From positions 2,232,001-2,296,000 of the forward strand of contig NZ_CP045651.1 of the NCBI RefSeq assembly GCF_009557455.1: a stretch of 64,000 nt of DNA, given 5' to 3'. Under the pieces are notes generated by a model that was not told the DNA's origin, made no database searches, and worked only from the letters and a program-made list of their open reading frames with translations. The position numbers and the translations under genes are program-made. Shown here one piece after another: positions 15,927 through 24,973 of this stretch. Source of the stretch: Alistipes sp. dk3624 (GTDB lineage: Bacteria > Bacteroidota > Bacteroidia > Bacteroidales > Rikenellaceae). Every line of letters starts with the position of its first letter. The first letter of the stretch is position 1.

Positions 15927-15996
15927 TAGCTAGAAGTAAATCTTCATAATATGGTATTTTAAAAAACACCTTAGAAATATTCTTTTCCGATTGTTT

Positions 15997-16036
15997 AATG
16001 CCGCAAAAGTTTTTTTTCAGTTCTTTTTGCGGTATT
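15997..16036 (+). terminator. Hairpin before the peptide/propeller island
   Basis: AATGCCGCAAAAG pairs with CTTTTTGCGGTATT across a T-rich loop and is followed by TTTATTTTG. It probably ends rarA transcription immediately before the first island promoter. Confidence 0.6.
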
Positions 16037-16040
16037 TTAT

Positions 16041-16072
16041 TTTGCTTTTTGCGAAAGGATAATATAACTTTA
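16041..16072 (+). promoter_or_regulatory. Island promoter 1 (repeated module)
   Basis: TTTG, 20 nt, TAACTTTA. The same block, continuing about 25 nt downstream, recurs at 17539 and 19153. All three copies precede an NVEALA-type peptide gene or its remnant. Confidence 0.65.
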
Positions 16073-16095
16073 AAGACAAACCAATATAAGAATGC
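16041..16095 (+). repeat. Copied promoter/leader repeat, copy 1
   Basis: Near-identical about 55-bp block containing CGAAAGGATAATATAACT and AGACAAACCAATATAAGAAT. Sister copies lie at 17539-17593 and 19153-19207. Each sits just after a hairpin and upstream of a peptide locus, so regulation appears to have been duplicated with the genes. Confidence 0.8.
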
Positions 16096-16179
16096 CTAGG
16101 ATCGATTGTTCTGAAAAATTTAGAATGTAATTAAATGTAAATGAATTGATGTGGATTATTGAATTTAAAGAAAAAAATT

Positions 16180-16452
16180 ATGAAAAAAAGTATTTTGGCA
16201 GCTATCCTTTTAAGCGGAGGATTTATTGCGGTAACGATGCATATGAAGCGTAATGATCCTAATGTTGGTGATTTATTGTTAAAGAATGTGGAGGCCTTGT
16301 CTGGGGATGAAAGTTCGGAAAAATTTAAATATCCTTGTAGTAATGGGATTTATTTTGATACTTCAAAAACGATTTCCAGTGTTAGATATTGTGGATCATG
16401 TGGTTATGTTGATGCGTCGAATACATTTGATCCGAGTGAATGTTCTCTGTAA
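16180..16452 (+). CDS. NVEALA family secreted peptide precursor (intact)
   Basis: Small 90-residue protein of the NVEALA family (function unknown). A Sec-like N-terminus starts MKKSILAAILLSGGFIAV. Then comes the leader-like LLLKNVEALSGDE motif at about 33-46, and a short Cys-containing C-terminus (PCSNGIYF, YCGSCGYV, SECSL) with four Cys. The ATG at 16180 was chosen over a TTG 21 bp upstream because it gives the canonical leader, with seven A's after ATG. It overlaps no neighbour and lies 32 bp before a beta-propeller lipoprotein start, presumably one operon from the promoter at 16041. It is the only undamaged peptide gene of the four in the island. Export and processing are inferred, not shown. 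Confidence 0.8.
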   Translation: MKKSILAAILLSGGFIAVTMHMKRNDPNVGDLLLKNVEALSGDESSEKFKYPCSNGIYFDTSKTISSVRYCGSCGYVDASNTFDPSECSL

Positions 16453-16484
16453 TTGAAACTTGTTATTCTTCTCGAATTTATTGT

Positions 16485-17462
16485 ATGAGAAAAGTTCTAT
16501 GGGCTGTGCTGTTTGCTTCTCAGTTGTTTTCCAGTTGTCGTCAAAAGGTGACTATAACCGAGAAAATGGCTTTCCCTCAAGAAAAAAGAGTTCAAGCCGT
16601 TAAATTTCCGGTGGGTGACGTAATGAATCCTAGTTACATGATCCAAAAAGGAGATTATTTGCTTGTTCGGAGCGGACAGCCAAAAAAACAATTGTTTGTC
16701 TTTACAGTGCCGGATTTAAATTTTGTTTGTGCAACTGGAAATAAAGGGAAAGGGCCCAACGAAATTCCTTTCCCTCCGATGTTGGTCGAGTCGCGTACGG
16801 ATACCCTTTATGTTTTTGGATATGCATACAGACATTTGAAGAGTTTGAAGGTGGACTCGGTAGCTTGTGTCCATTTGACCGAACGTTATGAAATTCCGTT
16901 GTACGAAGCTTTTAATCATATGCATTTGATTGATGATTCGGTGCTTTTGTATGAAACGGTTATGCTTCCTCAATATGCGGTTCACAAATATGATCTGAAA
17001 AATCGTAAAAGCATAGACGAACTGAAGATCGAACGGGAAACCCCCGAAAGTGAACTTACGTTCGATACCAGCAGGGGGTATATGGCGGCTAACGATTCGG
17101 TAATGATATACGTTTATTTGTATAAAAACCAGATCGATATTTATGATGTAAAGGATTTCAGGCTGAAGCGGCGGATCGTCGGAGTTTACAAACCTCAGAA
17201 GCCTGCATTTCGGGATGAAGAATTGTATTATTTGGGGGTTATTCCGGGGGATAAATATTTTTATGCCTTGTTCAAAGGCGCGCGAACCGAAAAAGGCGAA
17301 AACCGGAGCAATACGATCGAGGTGTACGATTACGACGGCAATCCGGTCGCTTTGTACCGGTTCGATATACCGCCGTTGTATTTTTATCCGGACGAAAAAA
17401 ACAATTGTATCTACGCCACGCATCCTTCCTGCATGGATACGTTGCTCCGGTATGATTTATAA
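16485..17462 (+). CDS. BF3164/TolB-like beta-propeller lipoprotein, copy 1
   Basis: Predicted envelope lipoprotein of 325 residues. The signal peptide MRKVLWAVLFASQLFSSC ends in a lipobox Cys at 18. The body resembles the Bacteroidetes TolB-like 6-bladed propeller family (BF3164-type): repeated YMIQKGDYLLVRSG, LFVFTVPDLNFVCATGNKG and GPNEIP blocks. The start at 16485 was used because two paralogues at 21093 and 22224 have exactly the same length from the equivalent ATG. The last two thirds are almost identical to the 21093 copy. It probably lies in an operon with the NVEALA peptide just upstream. Molecular role is unknown; ligand or peptide sensing at the surface is only a hypothesis. Confidence 0.8.
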   Translation: MRKVLWAVLFASQLFSSCRQKVTITEKMAFPQEKRVQAVKFPVGDVMNPSYMIQKGDYLLVRSGQPKKQLFVFTVPDLNFVCATGNKGKGPNEIPFPPMLVESRTDTLYVFGYAYRHLKSLKVDSVACVHLTERYEIPLYEAFNHMHLIDDSVLLYETVMLPQYAVHKYDLKNRKSIDELKIERETPESELTFDTSRGYMAANDSVMIYVYLYKNQIDIYDVKDFRLKRRIVGVYKPQKPAFRDEELYYLGVIPGDKYFYALFKGARTEKGENRSNTIEVYDYDGNPVALYRFDIPPLYFYPDEKNNCIYATHPSCMDTLLRYDL

Positions 17463-17500
17463 ATTTTCATTTCTACCCCAAGAATCGACGTTTTCTCATT

Positions 17501-17536
17501 AAAGCATCGTTAAAATTGACTTTTAACGATGCTTTT
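17501..17536 (+). terminator. Terminator after propeller lipoprotein copy 1
   Basis: Perfect stem AAAGCATCGTTAAAA, loop TTGAC, complement, then a T-rich tail. An almost identical hairpin follows the paralogue at 22109. Confidence 0.85.
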
Positions 17537-17538
17537 AT

Positions 17539-17570
17539 TTTGCTTTTTGCGAAAGGATAATATAACTTTA
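17539..17570 (+). promoter_or_regulatory. Island promoter 2 (repeated module)
   Basis: TTTG, 20 nt, TAACTTTA, overlapping the terminator tail. Copy 2 of the module described at 16041. It would drive the peptide remnant and the lipoprotein at 17833. Confidence 0.65.
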
Positions 17571-17593
17571 AAGACAAACCAATATAAGAATGC
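17539..17593 (+). repeat. Copied promoter/leader repeat, copy 2
   Basis: Second copy of the about 55-bp block at 16041-16095, with the same AGACAAACCAATATAAGAAT tail. Confidence 0.8.
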
Positions 17594-17671
17594 TTATGGA
17601 TGAAGTAGAAATGTAAGAGAGAAAGCGTATGTGAAATCAAAATTGATTGAAATAGTTGTATAATTTTATTA

Positions 17672-17776
17672 ATTAAAAAAAATGAGACTGAGAAGTTTAA
17701 TGGTAATGTCTATTTTGATTGTGAAGGATATATGCAATCCACTAATGATTATACGAGAGTAATCGTTTGTGGCTGA
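17672..17776 (+). pseudogene. NVEALA-type peptide gene remnant (leader deleted)
   Basis: In the frame ending at the TGA 17774-17776 the sequence reads ..GNVYFDCEGYMQSTNDY.. and ends VIVCG. This matches the C-terminus of the peptide at 19300 (TTYDCEGYVTGYSD), with the same 15-residue spacing between its last two Cys. The upstream side keeps the usual A-rich pre-start sequence, but the hydrophobic leader and the NVEAL motif are gone, and the only nearby ATG (17682) is out of frame. The simplest reading is an internal deletion that fused the 5' leader to the 3' end. It keeps its promoter and the downstream lipoprotein. Confidence 0.65.
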
Positions 17777-17832
17777 TTTCGGTCGAGTGGGGTCGAAGCG
17801 TTTGTTGGGAAAGACTCTCTAAATGTGTAAAA

Positions 17833-19041
17833 ATGAAGTTTTCTTTCTTTTGTATTTGTTTGTTCGTCTTCTGGATTTCTTGTTCTACGAATTCCGGGAC
17901 GAGTGGGGTTTTACGGAATGACAGTCTGTATGTTGTCGATGTCGATCGTGCGGAGCGAGAAAAAGTGTTATTCATGTCTTCGTTATTTCAAAAAGCGAAT
18001 GCTATTGTTCTGGACACATCGGTGTGGATAGGAAGTCTTGACAAAATACAAGGTTTGAATAATCGCATCTTTATATTAGATAGACATCAAGCTAAAGGAG
18101 TATTTGAATTTACGCGTGACGGTGTATTCGTACGGCAGATCGGAAGTCGGGGGAATGGGCCGGGCGAATATATCGTTCCGGGTGATTTTTCACTGGATAT
18201 GGTGAACGGTCGGATTTATATACTCGACGATCAAAAACAAACGATCAGTCAATACAATATCTCCGATGGGAAATTCCAGAAAACAATTGCATTGGACAAA
18301 GAGTCCGGGATTCGGAGCCATCGGATACAGTGGGCAGACGGATCATTGTTTGTAGATCTGTATTGTTTTGATGAGCAACCGGCTACGGATGGTTTGTTGC
18401 GGCGAATTGATCTTTCGACAGCAAAGAGTGATGGTGTTTATATGAGTTCGGCATACAATAAACAGTGGCACGATCCGGAACGGATAGATAGTAAAGTTTT
18501 TTATCCGGGAGAGAAGAATGCGTACCGATTCGTGAAACAGTTTATGGATACTGTATTTTATATCGGTTCCCAAGGAGTAATGCCTTATATGGCTTTGCAA
18601 AGCGAGGATCTGTTACGTCCGCAGGATTTAAAAGTTGTGGATATGAATTCCCGATTACCGCTGGAGGCACAACTTTTTCAGACAAACAAGATCTATGGTA
18701 TCCATGATTACAGGGAACATAATCATGTTATTTATTTTCGGTATATGAAGGGAGGAACGATTGTTTTTGTTGCGTTCGACACCAGAACGGGGAATACGAC
18801 GTTATTTGATTTAATGACGGATGACCTGCTTTTTAGTGAAAATGCACAGGCATTAATGCCGCAATTCGGTTGTTCGACAGGTGAGGGTGAATATTATTAT
18901 TTTAATAATGCCCCTTTTATAAATTTGAAAGGATGGGTTGAAGGTGGGGTGCTGTCTCCGACATTGGAAGGGCTAGATAAATTGAAAGTTTTAAATGAAA
19001 ATTCGAATCCCGTGATATTTTATTATGAGTATAAGAATTAA
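17833..19041 (+). CDS. 6-bladed beta-propeller lipoprotein (DUF5128-like) A
   Basis: Predicted lipoprotein of 402 residues. The signal peptide MKFSFFCICLFVFWISCST has its lipobox Cys at about 17. NHL-like blades follow: IFILDRHQAKGVFEFTRDG, VRQIGSRGNGPGEYIVPGDF, then FSLDMVNGRIYILDDQKQT. The frame is open from 17767, but the ATG at 17833 begins the signal peptide. It is paralogous to the genes at 19673 and (minus strand) 23313, all ending near ENSNPVIFYYEYKN or a variant. It is downstream of a broken peptide gene and of promoter module 2. Function unknown. Confidence 0.82.
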   Translation: MKFSFFCICLFVFWISCSTNSGTSGVLRNDSLYVVDVDRAEREKVLFMSSLFQKANAIVLDTSVWIGSLDKIQGLNNRIFILDRHQAKGVFEFTRDGVFVRQIGSRGNGPGEYIVPGDFSLDMVNGRIYILDDQKQTISQYNISDGKFQKTIALDKESGIRSHRIQWADGSLFVDLYCFDEQPATDGLLRRIDLSTAKSDGVYMSSAYNKQWHDPERIDSKVFYPGEKNAYRFVKQFMDTVFYIGSQGVMPYMALQSEDLLRPQDLKVVDMNSRLPLEAQLFQTNKIYGIHDYREHNHVIYFRYMKGGTIVFVAFDTRTGNTTLFDLMTDDLLFSENAQALMPQFGCSTGEGEYYYFNNAPFINLKGWVEGGVLSPTLEGLDKLKVLNENSNPVIFYYEYKN

Positions 19042-19056
19042 TGGTCTTTGAAAGGT

Positions 19057-19156
19057 GTTTAGCCTGGCCGGCGTTTTGATTTAGTGTCGGGGGGGGCGGT
19101 ATCGTCCTAACGGTAAAAGCATTGCAAAAACGACTTTTTGCAATGCTTTTATTTTG
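19057..19156 (+). repeat. Intergenic direct repeat R1, copy 1
   Basis: About 100 bp starting GTTTAGCCTGGCCGGCG and ending in the terminator and ATTTTG. The other copy is at 20921-21019. They differ mainly in a G-run (8 G's here, 7 there). The unit includes a terminator hairpin. Confidence 0.9.
19115..19150 (+). terminator. Terminator after propeller lipoprotein A
   Basis: Perfect 16-bp stem AAAAGCATTGCAAAAA, loop CGAC, complement ending in TTTT. Identical hairpin at 20978. Confidence 0.85.
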
Positions 19157-19184
19157 CTTTTTGCGAAAGGATAATGTAACTTTA
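19153..19184 (+). promoter_or_regulatory. Island promoter 3 (repeated module)
   Basis: TTTG, 20 nt, TAACTTTA, third copy of the promoter module. It precedes the frameshifted NVEALA peptide gene. Confidence 0.65.
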
Positions 19185-19207
19185 AAGACAAACCAATATA
19201 AGAATGC
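19153..19207 (+). repeat. Copied promoter/leader repeat, copy 3
   Basis: Third copy of the about 55-bp block seen at 16041 and 17539. Confidence 0.8.
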
Positions 19208-19299
19208 CTATGGATAAAGTAGAAATGTGAGAAAAAACGTATGTAAAATCAGAGTTTATTTAAATGGTTGTGTAATCTAATGAGAATTAATTTAAAAGA

Positions 19300-19657
19300 A
19301 TGAAAAAAAATATTATTTGCCGTAATTTCTTTTATCGTTGTTGTTTTAATCAGTGTTGCGTCGAATAACAGAAATAGTAATATTCAGGACGTTTCTCTCT
19401 TGCTGAAAAATGTTGAGGTTTTGACTGCGGGTGAAGAAGGGGGTGCTTCAGGATCTTGCCAAAAAAATGTCCCTAGTATTATGCGTGCCGATTGTGATGG
19501 AGATGGGAAATTTGAATCTACGTTTGCGATAATAACAACATATAGTTGCGAGGGAGACGGTTCAGGTCCCTGTAAGTCCGGGACAGTGAGTACTACGTAT
19601 GATTGTGAGGGATATGTGACCGGTTATTCCGATCTCACTTTGGATATGGATTGTTAG
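19300..19657 (+). pseudogene. NVEALA-type peptide gene with A8 frameshift
   Basis: ATG at 19300 is followed by eight A's (19303-19310). As written, the frame ends after 22 codons. Removing one A restores a perfect precursor: MKKILFAVISFIVVVLISVA signal segment, LLLKNVEVLTAGEEGG leader motif, then a Cys-rich C-terminus (TYSCEGDGSGPCKSG, TTYDCEGYVTGYSD, LDMDC). The intact paralogue at 16180 has seven A's. The in-frame downstream part alone opens at 19400. This may be a true frameshift, a phase-variable or slippage-expressed gene, or a homopolymer sequencing error. It lies 15 bp before a propeller lipoprotein. Cys pattern near the end is C-x7-C-x10-C-x15-C. Confidence 0.75.
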
Positions 19658-19672
19658 TTATGCATTTGGATT

Positions 19673-20905
19673 ATGTTTATTTTGAATGTTATGCTAAGGG
19701 TATGCTGTTTTATTGTCGTCTTTATTTTATGTGCCTGTAACAATCGCACTCGGGGTGAAACTCCTTTAACTGTAAACAACGATTTGTACGTTGTCGATAT
19801 TGATCACGCTGATAGGGAAAACATTGTGTATTCCGCTGTATTCGGAAAATTGAAAACGGTGGTCTTAGGTGCAAATGACAGTGTCCTGATCGGCGAGATC
19901 AGTAAAATGCAGGTGGGTCGTGACGGTATTTTCGTGCTGGACCGGAACCAAACCAAAGGCGTTTATCTGTTTTCGAGTGACGGGGCGTTTGTCCGCCGGT
20001 TCGGCAGTGTCGGAAACGGCCCCGGAGAGTATATCGCCCCGTTCGATTTCAGCCTTGATCAAAAAAACGACGAGTTGTTTATACTCGACGGGAGCAAACA
20101 ACGGATTAATAAATATGATATCGGGACGGGGAAATTTATCGGATATATTACGGTTAACCCCAAAGGCGGTACCCGGAGTTATCATATTCAGTACAATGAA
20201 GGGGCTTTGTTTGCGGACGCGTTTTTCGGACAATCTTCCAAAGAGAGTTATTTGCTGCAAAAAATAGATACTGCCACGGGCGTGCAGCAGAACGCTTATC
20301 TGAATAACCTCTATAATCAGAGGTGGGAAAATCTGCAAGAAATTGAGCCTACGGTTTTTTATTCCGTCGATCGGGAGTCCTCGCGTTTCGTAGAGCGATT
20401 TATGGATACGGTTATCTATGTTAGTTCGAAAGAGGTGAAACCGTATCTGGTAGTCAAAACGGAGAAGTGGATGCGTGCGAAAGATTGGAAAAAATTTGAA
20501 AAGGATAAGATGAGTCCGACCTTTCTAATGACACTGTTTTCTGCGGGGAAAATTTTCGGCATAAGCGATTATATCGAAAAGAAAGGGAGTTTTATTTATT
20601 TCGGGTATTACGACGGACGCAAAGCCGATGCTGTCGTGTATCATGTTAAAACGAAAGAAACCAAATTGGTCGGAGGCATTAAGGATGATCTGCTTTTTAA
20701 AAAAGATGTTTCGATGACGTTGTATACTGTTCTGGGGTGTACGACCGATAAGGGTGTCTATTTTTATGACAATAATCCGTCCGGTAATTTGAAGTCGTGT
20801 GCGGTGGACGGTGTTTTGTCTCCGAAACTGGATAATCTGGATGAGTTGAAACAGTTGGATGAAAATTCGAATCCGGTAATATTTTATTACGAATATAAAA
20901 ATTAG
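19673..20905 (+). CDS. 6-bladed beta-propeller lipoprotein (DUF5128-like) B
   Basis: Lipoprotein of 410 residues, paralogue of the gene at 17833. The signal peptide is LRVCCFIVVFILCACNN with a lipobox-like Cys; an in-frame ATG at 19691 is an equally good start. Blade motifs include IFVLDRNQTKGVYLFSSDG, VRRFGSVGNGPGEYIAPFDF and LFILDGSKQRINKYDIGTG. It ends ENSNPVIFYYEYKN, identical to the end of the 17833 product. It would be expressed with the peptide gene immediately upstream. Function unknown; envelope location is inferred from the signal. Confidence 0.82.
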   Translation: MFILNVMLRVCCFIVVFILCACNNRTRGETPLTVNNDLYVVDIDHADRENIVYSAVFGKLKTVVLGANDSVLIGEISKMQVGRDGIFVLDRNQTKGVYLFSSDGAFVRRFGSVGNGPGEYIAPFDFSLDQKNDELFILDGSKQRINKYDIGTGKFIGYITVNPKGGTRSYHIQYNEGALFADAFFGQSSKESYLLQKIDTATGVQQNAYLNNLYNQRWENLQEIEPTVFYSVDRESSRFVERFMDTVIYVSSKEVKPYLVVKTEKWMRAKDWKKFEKDKMSPTFLMTLFSAGKIFGISDYIEKKGSFIYFGYYDGRKADAVVYHVKTKETKLVGGIKDDLLFKKDVSMTLYTVLGCTTDKGVYFYDNNPSGNLKSCAVDGVLSPKLDNLDELKQLDENSNPVIFYYEYKN

Positions 20906-20920
20906 CGGTTCTTGTAGAGA

Positions 20921-21019
20921 GTTTAGCCTGGCCGGCGTTTTGATTTAGTGTCGGGGGGGCGGTATCGTCCTAACGGTAAAAGCATTGCAAAAACGACTTT
21001 TTGCAATGCTTTTATTTTG
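20921..21019 (+). repeat. Intergenic direct repeat R1, copy 2
   Basis: Second copy of the about 100-bp unit at 19057-19156, again directly after a DUF5128-like lipoprotein gene. Confidence 0.9.
20978..21013 (+). terminator. Terminator after propeller lipoprotein B
   Basis: Same 16-bp stem, AAAAGCATTGCAAAAA, and CGAC loop as at 19115, followed by ATTTTG. Confidence 0.85.
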
Positions 21020-21046
21020 TTTTTCGCTTCCAAAAGAGTAACTTCA
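21016..21046 (+). promoter_or_regulatory. Island promoter 4
   Basis: TTTG, 19 nt, TAACTTCA. The same block recurs at 22147. It drives a BF3164-like lipoprotein directly, without a peptide gene. Confidence 0.55.
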
Positions 21047-21122
21047 CAAAAGTTTGGCAGGATACTGCTATATATAAATGTCTGCGCGGATTATGAGAAA
21101 ACTTTTATGGGTATTGTCGCTT
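21020..21122 (+). repeat. Promoter-to-signal-peptide repeat R2, copy 1
   Basis: About 100 bp, nearly identical to 22151-22253. It covers the -7 region, the untranslated leader containing GTTTGGCAGGATACTGC, and the first codons of the lipoprotein gene. Confidence 0.85.
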
Positions 21123-22070
21123 GCCGTACCGCTCTTTTCGTGCGGCGATCGCGATACGGCCGTTACGGCGAAGCGAGCTTTCCCTCAGGAAAAAAGAATT
21201 CAAGCCGTTAAATGTCCGGTGGGTGACGTGATGGATCCTAGTTACATGATCCAAAAAGGGGATTATTTGCTTGTTCGGAGCGGACAGCCAAAAAAACAAT
21301 TGTTTGTCTTTACTGTGCCGGATTTGCGGTTCGTTTGTGCGACCGGAAATCAGGGGAGAGGCCCGGAAGAATTTTCTACATTTCCTACTTTGGTAGAGTC
21401 GCGTACGGATACTTTTTATGTTTTTGGATATGCTCATAGGCATTTGAAAAGTCTTGCGGTGGACTCGGCGGCTCGTGTCCATTTGACGGAGTGTTATGAA
21501 ATTCCGTTGCACGAAGTTTTTAACCATATGCATTTGATTGATGATTCGGTGCTTTTGTATGAAACGGTTATGCTTCCTCAATATGCGGTTTACAAGTATG
21601 ATCTGAAAAATCGTAAAAGCATAGACGAACTGAAGATCGAACGGGAAACCCCCGAAAGTGAACTTACGTTCGATACCAGCAGGGGGTATATGGCGGCTAA
21701 CGATTCGGTAATGATATACGTTTATTTGTATAAAAACCAGATCGATATTTATGATGTAAAGGATTTCAGGCTGAAGCGGCGGATCGTCGGAGTTTATAAA
21801 CCTCAGAAGCCTGCATTTCGGAATAAAGAATTGTATTATTTGGGGGTTATTCCGGGGGATAAATATTTTTATGCCTTGTTCAAAGGCGAGCGAACCGAAA
21901 AAGGCGAAAACCGCAGCAATACGATCGAAGTGTACGATTACGACGGCAATCCGGTCGCTCTGTACCGGTTCGATATACCGCCGTTGTATTTTTACCCGGA
22001 CGAAAAAAACAATTGTATCTACGCCACGCATCCTTCCTGCATGGATACGTTGCTCCGGTATGATTTATAA
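21093..22070 (+). CDS. BF3164/TolB-like beta-propeller lipoprotein, copy 2
   Basis: 325-residue paralogue of 16485. The two align without any length change from start codon through terminator (constant offset of 4608 bp). The C-terminal two thirds differ at only a few residues, whereas a patch around residues 80-145 is more diverged. The signal peptide MRKLLWVLSLAVPLFSCGD has its lipobox Cys at 17. An upstream in-frame ATG at 21078 would add MSARI; the 21093 start is preferred because all three paralogues then have equal length. It has no peptide gene between its promoter and start. Function unknown. Confidence 0.8.
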   Translation: MRKLLWVLSLAVPLFSCGDRDTAVTAKRAFPQEKRIQAVKCPVGDVMDPSYMIQKGDYLLVRSGQPKKQLFVFTVPDLRFVCATGNQGRGPEEFSTFPTLVESRTDTFYVFGYAHRHLKSLAVDSAARVHLTECYEIPLHEVFNHMHLIDDSVLLYETVMLPQYAVYKYDLKNRKSIDELKIERETPESELTFDTSRGYMAANDSVMIYVYLYKNQIDIYDVKDFRLKRRIVGVYKPQKPAFRNKELYYLGVIPGDKYFYALFKGERTEKGENRSNTIEVYDYDGNPVALYRFDIPPLYFYPDEKNNCIYATHPSCMDTLLRYDL

Positions 22071-22108
22071 ATTTTCATTTCTACCCCAAGAATCGACGTT
22101 TTCTCATT

Positions 22109-22143
22109 AAAGCATCGTTAAAAGTCAATTTTAACGATGCTTT
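22109..22143 (+). terminator. Terminator after propeller lipoprotein copy 2
   Basis: Stem AAAGCATCGTTAAAA with loop GTCAA, almost identical to the hairpin at 17501. Confidence 0.85.
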
Positions 22144-22146
22144 AAT

Positions 22147-22177
22147 TTTGCTTTTCGCTTCTAAAAGAGTAACTTCA
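22147..22177 (+). promoter_or_regulatory. Island promoter 5
   Basis: TTTG, 19 nt, TAACTTCA, copy of promoter 4. Confidence 0.55.
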
Positions 22178-22253
22178 CGAAAGTTTGGCAGGATACTGCT
22201 ATATATAAATGTCTGCGCGGATTATGAGGAAACTTTTATGGGTATTGTCGTTT
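22151..22253 (+). repeat. Promoter-to-signal-peptide repeat R2, copy 2
   Basis: Second copy of the unit at 21020-21122. Confidence 0.85.
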
Positions 22254-23201
22254 GCCGTACTGTTTTTTTCGTGCGGCAACCGCGATACGGTCGTTACTGC
22301 AAAGCGGGCCTTTCCGCAGGAGAAAAAGATCCGGGCCGTCCGTATTCCGGCGGGTGAAACGATGAATCCCGGACACATGCTGCAAAAGGGGGATTATCTT
22401 CTCATTGAGAGTATTCTGTCTCCGAAAATGTTGTTCGTTTACTCCGCACCCGATTTGCGGTTTGTTTGTGCGACCGGGAATAAAGGAAACGGGCCCGATG
22501 AGTTTCCGAGTATCCCCTTTCTGATAGATTCGCAAACCGACAGCATATATGTGTTCGGTTACGGTCTTCGGTATCTCAAGTCGATGGCAGTCGATCCCGC
22601 TGCCGGTGTCCGTCTCACCGAACGGTACGCTCTCCCTTTTCACGAGGCTTTTAACAGTATGCATTTGTTGAAGGATTCTGTGCTGGTTTACCAGACCGTT
22701 ATGCCTCCCCAGTATTCGATTAAAAAGTACAATCTGAGGCAAAACGAGATGATCGGCGAATTGAAAATGGAAAGAGAGAGTCCTCAAGAGGAACTTGCGT
22801 GGGATCTTAGCAGGGGCAAGATGGCTGCGAACGATTCCGTGATCGTTTATGTATATCTGTATAAAAATCAGATCGATCTGTACGATCTGGAGACTCTGGA
22901 ATTGAAAAAGCGGATCGTGGGGGAGTATAAGCTTCAACAGCCGACGTTTAAAGATGAGGAATTGTATTATGTAAGCGCCTTTGCCGGTAAAAAATATTTT
23001 TATGCTCTGTTCAAAGGCGAACGGAATGCGGAAGGTAAAAATCCGAGCAATACGATCGAGGTGTACGATTACGACGGCAATCCGGTGGTTCGTTACCGGT
23101 TCGATATGCCGCCGCTGTTTTTTTATCCGGACGAGAAGAACAATTGTATCTACGCCACGCATCCTTCCTGCATGGATACGTTGCTCCGGTATGATTTGTA
23201 G
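22224..23201 (+). CDS. BF3164/TolB-like beta-propeller lipoprotein, copy 3
   Basis: 325-residue third paralogue. The signal peptide MRKLLWVLSFAVLFFSCGN carries the lipobox Cys at 17. The middle is clearly diverged from copies 1 and 2 (for example YLLIESILSPKMLFVYSAPD), but the last 20 residues, NNCIYATHPSCMDTLLRYDL, are identical in all three. An ATG at 22209 is an alternative start. It converges with the minus-strand lipoprotein at 23313; no clear terminator was seen in the 111-bp gap. Function unknown. Confidence 0.8.
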   Translation: MRKLLWVLSFAVLFFSCGNRDTVVTAKRAFPQEKKIRAVRIPAGETMNPGHMLQKGDYLLIESILSPKMLFVYSAPDLRFVCATGNKGNGPDEFPSIPFLIDSQTDSIYVFGYGLRYLKSMAVDPAAGVRLTERYALPFHEAFNSMHLLKDSVLVYQTVMPPQYSIKKYNLRQNEMIGELKMERESPQEELAWDLSRGKMAANDSVIVYVYLYKNQIDLYDLETLELKKRIVGEYKLQQPTFKDEELYYVSAFAGKKYFYALFKGERNAEGKNPSNTIEVYDYDGNPVVRYRFDMPPLFFYPDEKNNCIYATHPSCMDTLLRYDL

Positions 23202-23312
23202 GACGGCTGCCCGGTCGGCGGGAGGGGAAGTGACGATTACGTATTTTTTTGCTGTGACCGGCTGGAACCGTACAGCATTTTATCGAACTGATCGGAACGT
23301 TTGCCGACGGTT

Positions 23313-24572
23313 TTATTCATCCGGCAGGGTTTTGTATTTATAGAAAAATATCACGGGATTGGCATCGTCCTTCATTTTTTTCAATTTATCCGATTTGTTT
23401 AAGTTTTTGGAAAATAGATTCAGGGAAAAGCCCTCCATGAAATTTCCTATTGCATTTGTATTGACATAATAATATACACCCTCGTTACCGGCGCAGCCGA
23501 ACTTAGGAAACCATACGTGCATATTATCTTTTTCAAAAAGCAGGTCGTCGGCAATCGTGTCGTATAGTTTCGTTTCGTTCGTTTCCGTATCGTACGTAGT
23601 AAAAGTCGAAGTCAGGCCGTTGCGATATACGAAGTAGATACGACCGTCGTGTTCGAAATAGCTGTTGATATCGAAAATCTTATTTTTTGAAAATATGTAA
23701 TCGAATACCGAATGGATTGGAGCGTCTTTTTCAATCGATTCTATATCTTCCGCGGTCATGATATCTTCGCTTTGCAAAGAAAGGTAAGGCATTACCTTTT
23801 CGCGGCTGATGTAAATAATGGTATTCATGAATACTTGCATGAACCGTGAAGATTCTTCGTTCACGGTGTAAAAAACATGGTCATGGATATAACTGGGATT
23901 CTTCCATCCTTTGTTGTACTGCGTTGCATTTAAAAAAGTACTTTGTTGTTTGCCTTTGCAGGTGTCTAATTTTTGTAATAAAAAGTCCCGTTTCGATGGA
24001 GCCAACGTATATACGTCCGTGAAAATAACTCCGTCGTTATATTGGATGTGGTAACTTCTTATTGGATCGTCTTTATTGATTTCGAAATGTCCGAGATACT
24101 TGCCCGATGTCATTTCGTATTTATTGATCCGTTGTCTTGGCCCGTCGAGAATGTAGATGATTCTGTTTTTCTGATCCAAGGTGAAATCGAAGGGTTTTAT
24201 GTATTCTCCGGGACCGGAACCGATGTTTCCTATTTGCTGAATATAGTTTCCGTTGCGCGAATATTTAAAGACGCCTTTGGAAATATTGATGTCCAAAATA
24301 TAAATGATGCTGTCGTCCGCTTGTATTTTGTCTATATTTCCGATGACTTTCTCTTCCGAGTCGAGAATTATAGTTTCCAAATCACAGAAAATAGATGAGA
24401 ATACAAACGATCGTTCCTTTGTTGAATGATCGAGGTCGATTGAGTATAAATTTTTGTTTTCCATGAGATTATCGTCCTGCCGCGGGCCTGAGCAGGACGA
24501 TAATAGAAAACATATCGAAGATAAGCGAATGAAATGATCGAGTACGGATTTAGCGTTTTTTAGATCAAGCAT
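23313..24572 (-). CDS. 6-bladed beta-propeller lipoprotein (DUF5128-like) C
   Basis: 419-residue minus-strand paralogue of the genes at 17833 and 19673. The N-terminus is longer than usual, with the lipobox LSSICFLLSSCSG giving a Cys at about 29. Blades include IIYILDINISKGVFKYSRNG, QIGNIGSGPGEYIKPFDF and IIYILDGPRQRINKYEMTSG. The end DANPVIFFYKYKTLPDE corresponds to the NPVIFYYEYKN end of its paralogues plus a short tail. It starts 13 nt after a broken NVEALA-type peptide gene, so the peptide-lipoprotein pairing is kept on this strand too. Confidence 0.82.
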   Translation of the reverse strand: MLDLKNAKSVLDHFIRLSSICFLLSSCSGPRQDDNLMENKNLYSIDLDHSTKERSFVFSSIFCDLETIILDSEEKVIGNIDKIQADDSIIYILDINISKGVFKYSRNGNYIQQIGNIGSGPGEYIKPFDFTLDQKNRIIYILDGPRQRINKYEMTSGKYLGHFEINKDDPIRSYHIQYNDGVIFTDVYTLAPSKRDFLLQKLDTCKGKQQSTFLNATQYNKGWKNPSYIHDHVFYTVNEESSRFMQVFMNTIIYISREKVMPYLSLQSEDIMTAEDIESIEKDAPIHSVFDYIFSKNKIFDINSYFEHDGRIYFVYRNGLTSTFTTYDTETNETKLYDTIADDLLFEKDNMHVWFPKFGCAGNEGVYYYVNTNAIGNFMEGFSLNLFSKNLNKSDKLKKMKDDANPVIFFYKYKTLPDE

Positions 24573-24585
24573 GTTTAACCTTTGA

Positions 24586-24745
24586 TTAGTTGCAATAGAT
24601 AACTTCTACATTTTGCGATCCCCCCTGTCCGGTTTCCTTGGCAATCGTAGGTGTAATAAGTATATCCTTCCCAGCAACTGCCTCCGTTGCCGGCTTGGCA
24701 CATATCCGTAAATGTCGTAAGCGTAGTTGCATGATTCCGCTGCAA
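24586..24745 (-). pseudogene. NVEALA-type peptide remnant (5' truncated, G6 frameshift)
   Basis: On the minus strand the sequence reads MCQAGNGGSCWEGYTYYTYD, then CQGNRTGG. This aligns residue for residue with SCEGDGSGPCKSGTVSTTYD CEG of the peptide at 19300, with identical Cys spacing. A run of six G's (24620-24625) shifts the frame; with five G's it would end SQNVEVIYCN at 24586, giving the same 15-residue spacing to the last Cys as in the other copies. No hydrophobic leader or NVEAL motif in a usable frame lies upstream. It immediately precedes the minus-strand lipoprotein gene. Confidence 0.65.
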
Positions 24746-24800
24746 TTCGTTTTGATATTTTAATTGATGTCTTTATGAAGTATTCATTTGTGATATGAAT

Positions 24801-24822
24801 GTATAACAAATGTATAACAAAT
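24801..24822. repeat. Short tandem repeat, 11 bp x 2
   Basis: GTATAACAAAT is present twice in tandem (24801-24811, and from 24812 as the next unit). On the minus strand each unit creates a TAnnTTTG-like box, so it may be part of the promoter for the truncated peptide/lipoprotein pair. The rest of 24823-24970 holds nothing recognisable. Confidence 0.5.
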
Positions 24823-24973
24823 GCAAATTAATATGTTTCGATTAACAGTTCTGGTGTCAAAGCGAAAATTAGTGGTTTTTGTAAAAAGGTCGGCTTGATT
24901 GAGGTTTTGCCTATTTTATCCGTATAAAAAAAAGCCGTAAACGGGCTTCTCCGGATGCGGTTTGCGGGGGGTA

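Follow-up and report, generated by a model that had tools for sequence, protein, structure and literature searches.

The A+T-rich island of about 9 kb found in the window, a stretch of 64,000 nucleotides from Alistipes sp. dk3624 (contig NZ_CP045651.1, positions 2,232,001 to 2,296,000), represents one set of a module that is spread through Bacteroidota and consists of two genes, one for a short NVEALA-type precursor peptide and, after it, one for a β-propeller lipoprotein. Comparisons across genomes suggest that the peptides and the propellers are matched partners, and the existence of the module and its cognate pairing can be put forward with high confidence. The pairs probably represent exported, processed, disulfide-type peptides with cognate lipoprotein partners used for competition or recognition among relatives; this explanation, taken as a whole, is assigned a probability of about 0.45.

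The loci in which the pairing was examined number 70, cover 843 kb, and contain 166 peptide frames; almost every one was picked for matches to the NVEALA family PF14055. Of these frames, 164 were placed relative to their neighbors, 159 have a recognizable core, and 150 were used for leader columns; one locus, L138, yields no peptide with the custom leader model. A propeller of the DUF5128 or TolB_like family is next on the same strand, further peptides between being allowed, for 148 of the 164 placed peptides, with a median gap of 70 nucleotides, whereas a propeller is the upstream neighbor of only 54. Among the 16 peptides that neither family follows, four precede a DUF4221 propeller, one is cut by the end of its locus, and five precede a thioredoxin-like gene (so called for C-x-x-C motifs seen in the sequences and for a weak match to Redoxin, which at 16.2 bits falls short of the 26.6-bit cut-off). 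In the host genome of the island, a propeller follows the peptide in 15 of 19 cases. The pairing, whose conservation in relatives the initial annotation had proposed as a check, is therefore maintained across these peptide-selected loci. It extends beyond the class Bacteroidia: in Parapedobacter defluvii (Sphingobacteriia), a thioredoxin-like gene, a peptide, a propeller, an S26 signal peptidase, and a Wzy_C protein are encoded in one row. A variation in arrangement is seen in locus L146 (6900-8900), in which five tandem peptides with nearly identical leaders are followed by a single TolB_like propeller.

The variable cores of the peptides co-vary with the propellers that follow them. In a set of 120 pairs from 39 genomes, in which the propeller is the very next gene and exceeds 250 amino acids and the core has at least 10 residues, the similarity of cores correlates with that of propellers across genomes (Pearson r of 0.474). 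Shuffling propellers within genomes gives 0.035 (standard deviation 0.033), and shuffling within both genome and propeller family gives 0.120 (standard deviation 0.052), with none of 1000 shuffles reaching the observed value. The correlation persists when similarities of 0.6 or more are removed (0.216 against a null of 0.064, 0 of 1000) and between Rikenellaceae and Bacteroidaceae (0.132 against a null of 0.010 with a maximum of 0.127, 0 of 1000). The leaders show no such co-variation with the propellers (0.124 against a null of 0.117, standard deviation 0.013). For the 33 cross-genome core matches with a similarity of at least 0.3, the propellers are the best cross-genome match of at least one side in 24 cases and lie within the top five in 30. 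Several of these matched cores bear quite different leaders, and leaders are more alike within genomes (median similarity 0.44) than between them (0.24), from which core and propeller seem to move as a unit, while the leader stays that of the host. The peptide cores thus do not vary independently of the lipoproteins, as they could have done under the initial annotation's own test, and a cognate partner gene that lies directly downstream and co-varies with the core is found for the family at large.

The module is unevenly distributed. The host genome, a single contig of 3.02 Mb, has 16 PF14055 matches, eight of which reach the curated cut-off of 27 bits; with the custom leader profile, the stretches fetched from it yield 20 peptide frames, along with 33 propellers. 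It is an outlier in its genus, being the only one of nine genomes with PF14055 matches. Such matches occur in 17 of 112 genomes of Rikenellaceae, at most five in each genome other than the host, in 30 of 81 genomes of Bacteroidaceae, with up to 21 per genome, and in four of 296 genomes, the host included, sampled across the phylum. Searches of genome contigs with an alignment (A1) retrieved 56 loci; those with the single propeller D2 (described below) gave 38 matches and no relatives, and viral contigs searched with the peptide P1 gave 24 pattern matches and no relatives. A record titled Candidatus Shapirobacteria (L217) carries DUF5128 propellers and an S26 gene and is perhaps a misbinned contig. 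A gene pair that resembles, by eye, the istA/istB of an IS21-type element lies inside the peptide loci L112, L118, L125, and L130 and is a possible means of rearrangement.

The precursor peptides share a Lys-rich start, a hydrophobic segment, and a conserved linker ending in N-V-E-A-L-A, after which the Cys-bearing core begins. In the nine peptides of the main leader type in genome G445, the leader nucleotides are 0.90-0.99 identical through the NVEAL codons, and identity falls to 0.49 over the next 15 nucleotides and then to 0.28. Type I signal peptidases require small residues at -3 and -1, and, assuming a cut after A-L-A, Ala is present at -3 in 145 of 150 leaders, and 144 of the 150 carry a small residue at -1; the distance of the A-L-A motif from the hydrophobic segment is greater than usual. 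Some DUF5128 propellers are preceded by a different type of leader, which ends in L-A-Q (L190, L204, L214) or Q-A-Q (L197) and is followed by Cys-bearing cores.

A candidate for the cleaving enzyme is a distinct S26 peptidase (PF10502) of roughly 280-355 amino acids, which is encoded beside peptides in 15 of 69 loci. In the 112 Rikenellaceae genomes, it is separated from the longer housekeeping enzyme by its matches (E of 1e-65 or better, the next being 4.5e-32). Fourteen of these genomes have the distinct enzyme, and NVEALA peptides occur in 13 of the 14 and in four of the 98 without it, leaving 94 with neither (Fisher 9e-13, relatedness not corrected). Among 25 NVEALA genomes hand-picked from 47 positive ones (17 Rikenellaceae and 30 Bacteroidaceae), 23 have an S26 gene and a peptide on the same contig at most 25 kb apart, the exceptions being G064 and G475. 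In the host genome, a Wzy_C protein, the distinct S26 enzyme, and a thioredoxin-like protein are encoded in a row at 263.4-266.9 kb, where the GC content is 0.51-0.58. Recurrent neighbors in the 69 loci include a lipoprotein that weakly matches an F5/8-type domain (15 loci), Wzy_C (14 loci), which often adjoins S26, and thioredoxin-like genes (29 loci), which in several loci come immediately after a peptide and its propeller. Co-occurrence, motif, and gene order together indicate that the leader is likely cut by the distinct S26 enzyme. Export of the peptides, which the initial annotation had assumed, is suggested by the leader, with its hydrophobic segment and A-x-A-like site, and by the co-occurrence with S26, which together form its basis. 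A gene that is TolC-like by eye lies near peptides in eight loci (L065, L067, L069, L074, L119, L135, L146, L148), with pump genes in some; these are candidate exporters.

One group of peptides differs from the rest in its neighbors and in its cores. A regulator is the 5′ neighbor of 19 peptides: in 15 cases it is a membrane protein that ends in a DNA-binding domain (of two members tested, one scores 31 bits against PF00486 and the other stays below the cut-off), and in four cases it is a histidine kinase together with a response regulator-like gene. The 19 adjacent cores are short and have two cysteines in 17 cases and three in two. A single core pattern, which was written after viewing the sequences, fits 15 of these 19 peptides and four of the other 140 (p of 3e-14). 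The other 140 cores have four or six cysteines in 80 cases and an even number in 113. The regulator-adjacent peptides appear, by core and context, to be an inducer-like class of their own. In L113, L121, L122, L124, and L125, the gene after a short peptide with two or three cysteines is thioredoxin-like and not a propeller gene, with a membrane regulator 5′ in four of these loci. In L009 (7188-8532), the histidine kinase-like gene beside the host's own two-Cys peptide consists of two overlapping frames, possibly because of a frameshift.

The island itself (15927..24910, not assigned to a strand) lies between genes that we presume, from their sequence, to be rarA-like and kdsA-like. The two flanking genes are neighbors, separated by no more than a few hundred bases, in all seven congeners in which both flanks lie on one contig stretch (eight were searched, and in the eighth, G004, the match is at a contig end), and the 9-kb stretch is therefore an insertion. 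Its GC content is 0.36-0.45 over 16-25 kb, compared with 0.54-0.61 in the adjoining kilobases; peptide and propeller genes are AT-rich across the host genome in general. The island holds six propeller lipoprotein genes, three DUF5128 and three TolB_like, five on the + strand and one on the - strand. Peptide sites lie directly 5′ of four of the six, and one of these sites is intact, one is frame-broken, and two are remnants.

The intact peptide, P1 (16180..16452, +), has 90 amino acids and four cysteines in its core. It scores 23.8 bits against PF14055 (E of 3.7e-5), which is below the curated cut-off. The second site, P2 (19300..19657, +), has six cysteines in its core, and its leader frame is interrupted by an A-tract that adjoins the start codon; in its own frame it scores 23 bits, likewise under the 27-bit cut-off. 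The N-V-E-A-L motif after the hydrophobic segment reads NVEALS in P1 and NVEVLT in P2, and both pass the custom leader profile (E < 1e-3). The remnant P3 (17680..17775, +) ends like the P2 core, with a score of 47 that none of 2000 shuffles reaches (maximum 44); among 156 cores, P2 is its best match, by a thin margin over a runner-up at 45. The other remnant, P4 (24578..24770, -), has a core like that of P2, with a score of 67 (0 of 2000 shuffles, maximum 58), P2 again being first of 156 cores and the runner-up scoring 47. The cores of P2, P3, and P4 are alike, and P1, which precedes a TolB_like propeller, is unrelated to them. Several broken leaders (L011, L016, and the window at 19300) break at homopolymer runs by the start codon, which may reflect assembly error, decay, or slippage as in phase variation; one genome per species was examined.

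The DUF5128 propellers that follow P3, P2, and P4 are D1 (17833..19041, +; 116.7 bits against PF17170), D2 (19691..20905, +; 109.6 bits), and D3 (23313..24572, -; 80 bits). All three lie well above the family cut-off of 22.9 bits and belong to this family of six-bladed propellers. D2 shares 42-43% identity with D1 and D3, and inside the window related cores therefore precede related propellers. The AlphaFold model of D2 is a six-bladed propeller with a predicted local distance difference test score (pLDDT) of 90.9, and its best match in the PDB by Foldseek is 4raa (BF0058 of Bacteroides fragilis), with a template modelling score over the target (TMt) of 0.79, followed by 3s9j (BVU_1028, a DUF4221 protein) and then by NHL domains. 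The TolB_like propellers are T1 (16485..17462, +; start codon chosen by us), which follows P1, and two that have no peptide, T2 (21093..22070, +) and T3 (22224..23201, +). Their scores of 32.0, 39.5, and 44.0 bits against PF15869 exceed its cut-off of 29.2 bits; a fold model built from the three sequences has a pLDDT of 53 and gives no usable fold. T2 is a near-copy of T1, being 98% identical over 300 nucleotides and 85% identical over another 300. The ratio of nonsynonymous to synonymous substitution rates (dN/dS) among T1-T3 is 0.10-0.30 (0.10 for T3 against T1 and 0.14 for T3 against T2, with dS saturated for T3), as expected of working genes; for the DUF5128 pairs, saturation of dS makes the ratio not computable. 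The system is decaying in the window: three of the four peptide sites are broken, all six propellers are open, and the TolB_like propellers are under purifying selection.

Five direct-repeat families are present in the island, with copies 60-98% identical to their reference, as expected for the tandem duplication by which the initial annotation had proposed that it was built. One of them, D4, is a 112-nucleotide unit (16014..16125, 17512-17623, and 19126-19237, +; two copies 68% and 90% identical to the reference copy) that precedes three of the peptide sites. Promoters belonging to each peptide gene were not apparent, as 18 promoter-like sites were found where 24.1 are expected, using a σ70 consensus that may not suit this phylum; yet the 112-nucleotide unit stands before three sites. 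Terminator-like hairpins, with 15-19 pairs and a T-tract each, lie after T1 (17501..17535, +), D1 (19112..19153, +), D2 (20975..21016, +), and T2 (22106..22146, +), although the 11 terminator-like sites counted in all come close to the 9.2 expected. A surface location of the lipoproteins also lacks support. In Bacteroidota, the export signal of surface lipoproteins consists of acidic residues directly after the lipid cysteine. The acid fraction there is 0.06-0.11 per position in the 18 of 22 host propellers with a lipobox call, and the three SusD proteins of the same genome, a thin comparison, read CKDALD, CSDALD, and CDGFLD. On the whole, the initial annotation of the island is borne out in its base composition, its six lipoproteins of two propeller families, its peptide sites, and its origin by duplication; separate promoters are not supported, and only one of the peptide genes is intact.

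Taken together, these data may be accommodated by the following scheme. The precursor would be exported by Sec, and the distinct S26 signal peptidase, encoded elsewhere in the genome, would cut after A-L-A and release the variable core, the cysteines of which would be paired with help from the thioredoxin-like protein. The six-bladed propeller lipoprotein would bind the core of its own peptide specifically, as the statistical co-variation suggests. The peptide would be diffusible, and the lipoprotein would protect its maker, in an organization like that of regulated class II bacteriocin loci, with the short two-Cys peptide beside the regulator as the putative inducer. Competition or recognition is preferred because of the hypervariable cores, the matched partner genes, the orphan propellers, and the inducer-like peptide class, and a role in competition or protection is proposed tentatively. 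More doubtful is the full combination of an NVEALA-ended extended signal peptide, an S26 enzyme of its own instead of C39, hypervariable disulfide cores matched one to one by propellers, a conserved two-Cys class that induces a membrane-bound regulator, and a host-typical leader.

Several observations weigh against this scheme. Rank correlation between cores and propellers is nil (Spearman 0.011 against a null of -0.005, standard deviation 0.021) because most cores cannot be aligned; the signal sits in the minority tail of recognizably similar cores. The pairs in the window have no close relatives in the co-variation set, so that co-variation is established for the family and not for these pairs. 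Leaders in the host genome share little beyond the NVEALA block (0.73). The distinct S26 enzyme is missing from four of the 17 Rikenellaceae genomes with NVEALA peptides, and 17 of the 25 picked genomes contain a C39 domain. Export through C39 at a double glycine, which the likeness of the leaders to GG leaders had suggested, was set aside because the other eight genomes, the host included, have no PF03412 match while the distinct S26 tracks the peptides. When propellers are gathered by their own motif from named records (96 propellers with at least 700 nucleotides upstream; L203 and L207 lie on contigs equal in length to G482:C44 and G109:C8, already used, so the set is not fully independent), an NVEALA peptide lies within 600 nucleotides upstream of just 20, and the propeller families therefore also do other things or use peptides that the custom model misses. 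Loose criteria find a small open reading frame upstream of 14 of the other 76, several of which are plainly not such peptides. The cores are mostly acidic, with a median net charge of -2, counted from just after the motif and including the common Glu, and only 13 of 159 reach +2 or more. Usual bacteriocins are cationic, and a cationic antimicrobial reading was rejected because the cores are acidic on the whole. Peptide frames are broken more often than propellers in the host genome (4 of 19, P3 and P4 excluded, against 0 of 22; p of 0.04), but not outside it (10 of 147 against 11 of 185; p of 0.82; frames at locus ends excluded in both counts). The idea that propellers are kept for immunity once the peptide has been lost was accordingly rejected as a general rule. 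The acidic cores and the equal decay elsewhere count against a simple bacteriocin-immunity view.

Peptide signaling fits nearly as well as competition or recognition, although it is judged unlikely to be the answer. The peptide would be a pheromone, and the propeller a specific co-receptor that relays to the membrane-bound regulator or two-component system. The acidic cores and the cognate co-variation of core and propeller suit such a role, as do the regulators directly 5′ of one distinct peptide class, whose periplasmic part was judged by eye. These regulators, however, account for 19 cases, and 140 of 159 peptides have none as 5′ neighbor; about twenty pairs per genome are many for pheromones, and a lipoprotein alone carries no signal across the inner membrane. 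A "contact-dependent" system, also raised in the initial annotation, is not supported.

An improbable alternative is that the propeller acts as a carrier or chaperone, holding the peptide for folding, for modification by thioredoxin-like or Wzy_C proteins, or for passage of the outer membrane, so that the peptide acts on, for example, the host or the envelope. The frequency of thioredoxin-like (29 of 69) and Wzy_C (14 of 69) genes in the loci, the former at times straight after the pair and the latter often adjoining S26, would be explained, but intact propellers without peptides would not (T2, T3, and 76 of 96 elsewhere, although some peptides may have been missed). It is very unlikely that the propellers capture small molecules in the manner of BtuG and XusB and that the peptide serves them as a subunit or lid. 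Both of these propellers are among the top 50 Foldseek matches, but with template modelling scores over the query (TMq) of just 0.36-0.44; none of the 18 gene clusters common to at least two loci looks, by eye and without a family search, like a TonB-dependent transporter, and the co-variation of variable cores with the propeller is not expected of such a function. That the two genes are simply AT-rich neighbors duplicated together without functional coupling is scarcely credible: the island was indeed built by duplication, and its gene types are AT-rich throughout the host genome, but the core, and not the leader, co-varies with the propeller across genomes and families, and the gene order is directional.

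Bacteroidota are a dominant phylum of the human gut, and to our knowledge peptide communication and competition among them are known from few examples. Through the analysis, the NVEALA and DUF5128 families become matched pairs for which a processing enzyme and regulators are predicted, and in which binding, cleavage, and function are each open to a single simple experiment. If the scheme is correct, gut Bacteroidota would possess a language of kin recognition and competition with interchangeable core-plus-propeller cassettes. The peptide and propeller families are described in Pfam (NVEALA PF14055, DUF5128 PF17170, TolB_like PF15869, and DUF4221 PF13970), with 4raa and 3s9j as solved relatives, under names that give neither function nor pairing. 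In the open literature searched, with preprints and most subscription papers outside its scope, nothing was found on peptide-propeller pairing; "NVEALA" and "DUF5128" appear in no paper, and "PF14055" appears in five papers, which by title belong to other fields. An iron-response table for Bacteroides thetaiotaomicron lists BT0662 (O-antigen ligase family), BT0663 (hypothetical), BT0664 (6-bladed β-propeller), and BT0667 (signal peptidase I), a stretch that is not discussed as a system in the parts of that article available to us (PMC10434189).

Among known systems, the bacteroidetocins and other GG-leader clusters of ribosomally synthesized and post-translationally modified peptides (RiPPs) resemble the module in combining a leader and a core in Bacteroidales (PMC10352776). 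These clusters go with a C39 peptidase transporter. The NVEALA peptides differ in that their leaders end in A-L-A-x-x-E and not in GG, the signature of peptidase-containing transporter (PCAT) substrates, and in that no C39 domain is found in the host and seven others of the 25 picked genomes, S26 co-occurring instead. BtuG and XusB of Bacteroides are, like the proteins described here, propeller lipoproteins of Bacteroidota; the modest TMq values and the lack, by eye, of a TonB-dependent transporter among shared neighbors set them apart. LanI immunity lipoproteins such as NisI are likewise matched to a secreted peptide, in a fold different from the propeller; the setting here is Gram-negative, and protection by the propeller is putative. 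Pneumococcal blp and other regulated class II bacteriocin loci have an inducer peptide next to a regulator, many peptide/partner pairs, and dedicated processing. The module described here would replace the C39 transporter of such loci with a signal peptidase and their membrane immunity protein with a propeller lipoprotein, acting on peptides whose activity is predicted.

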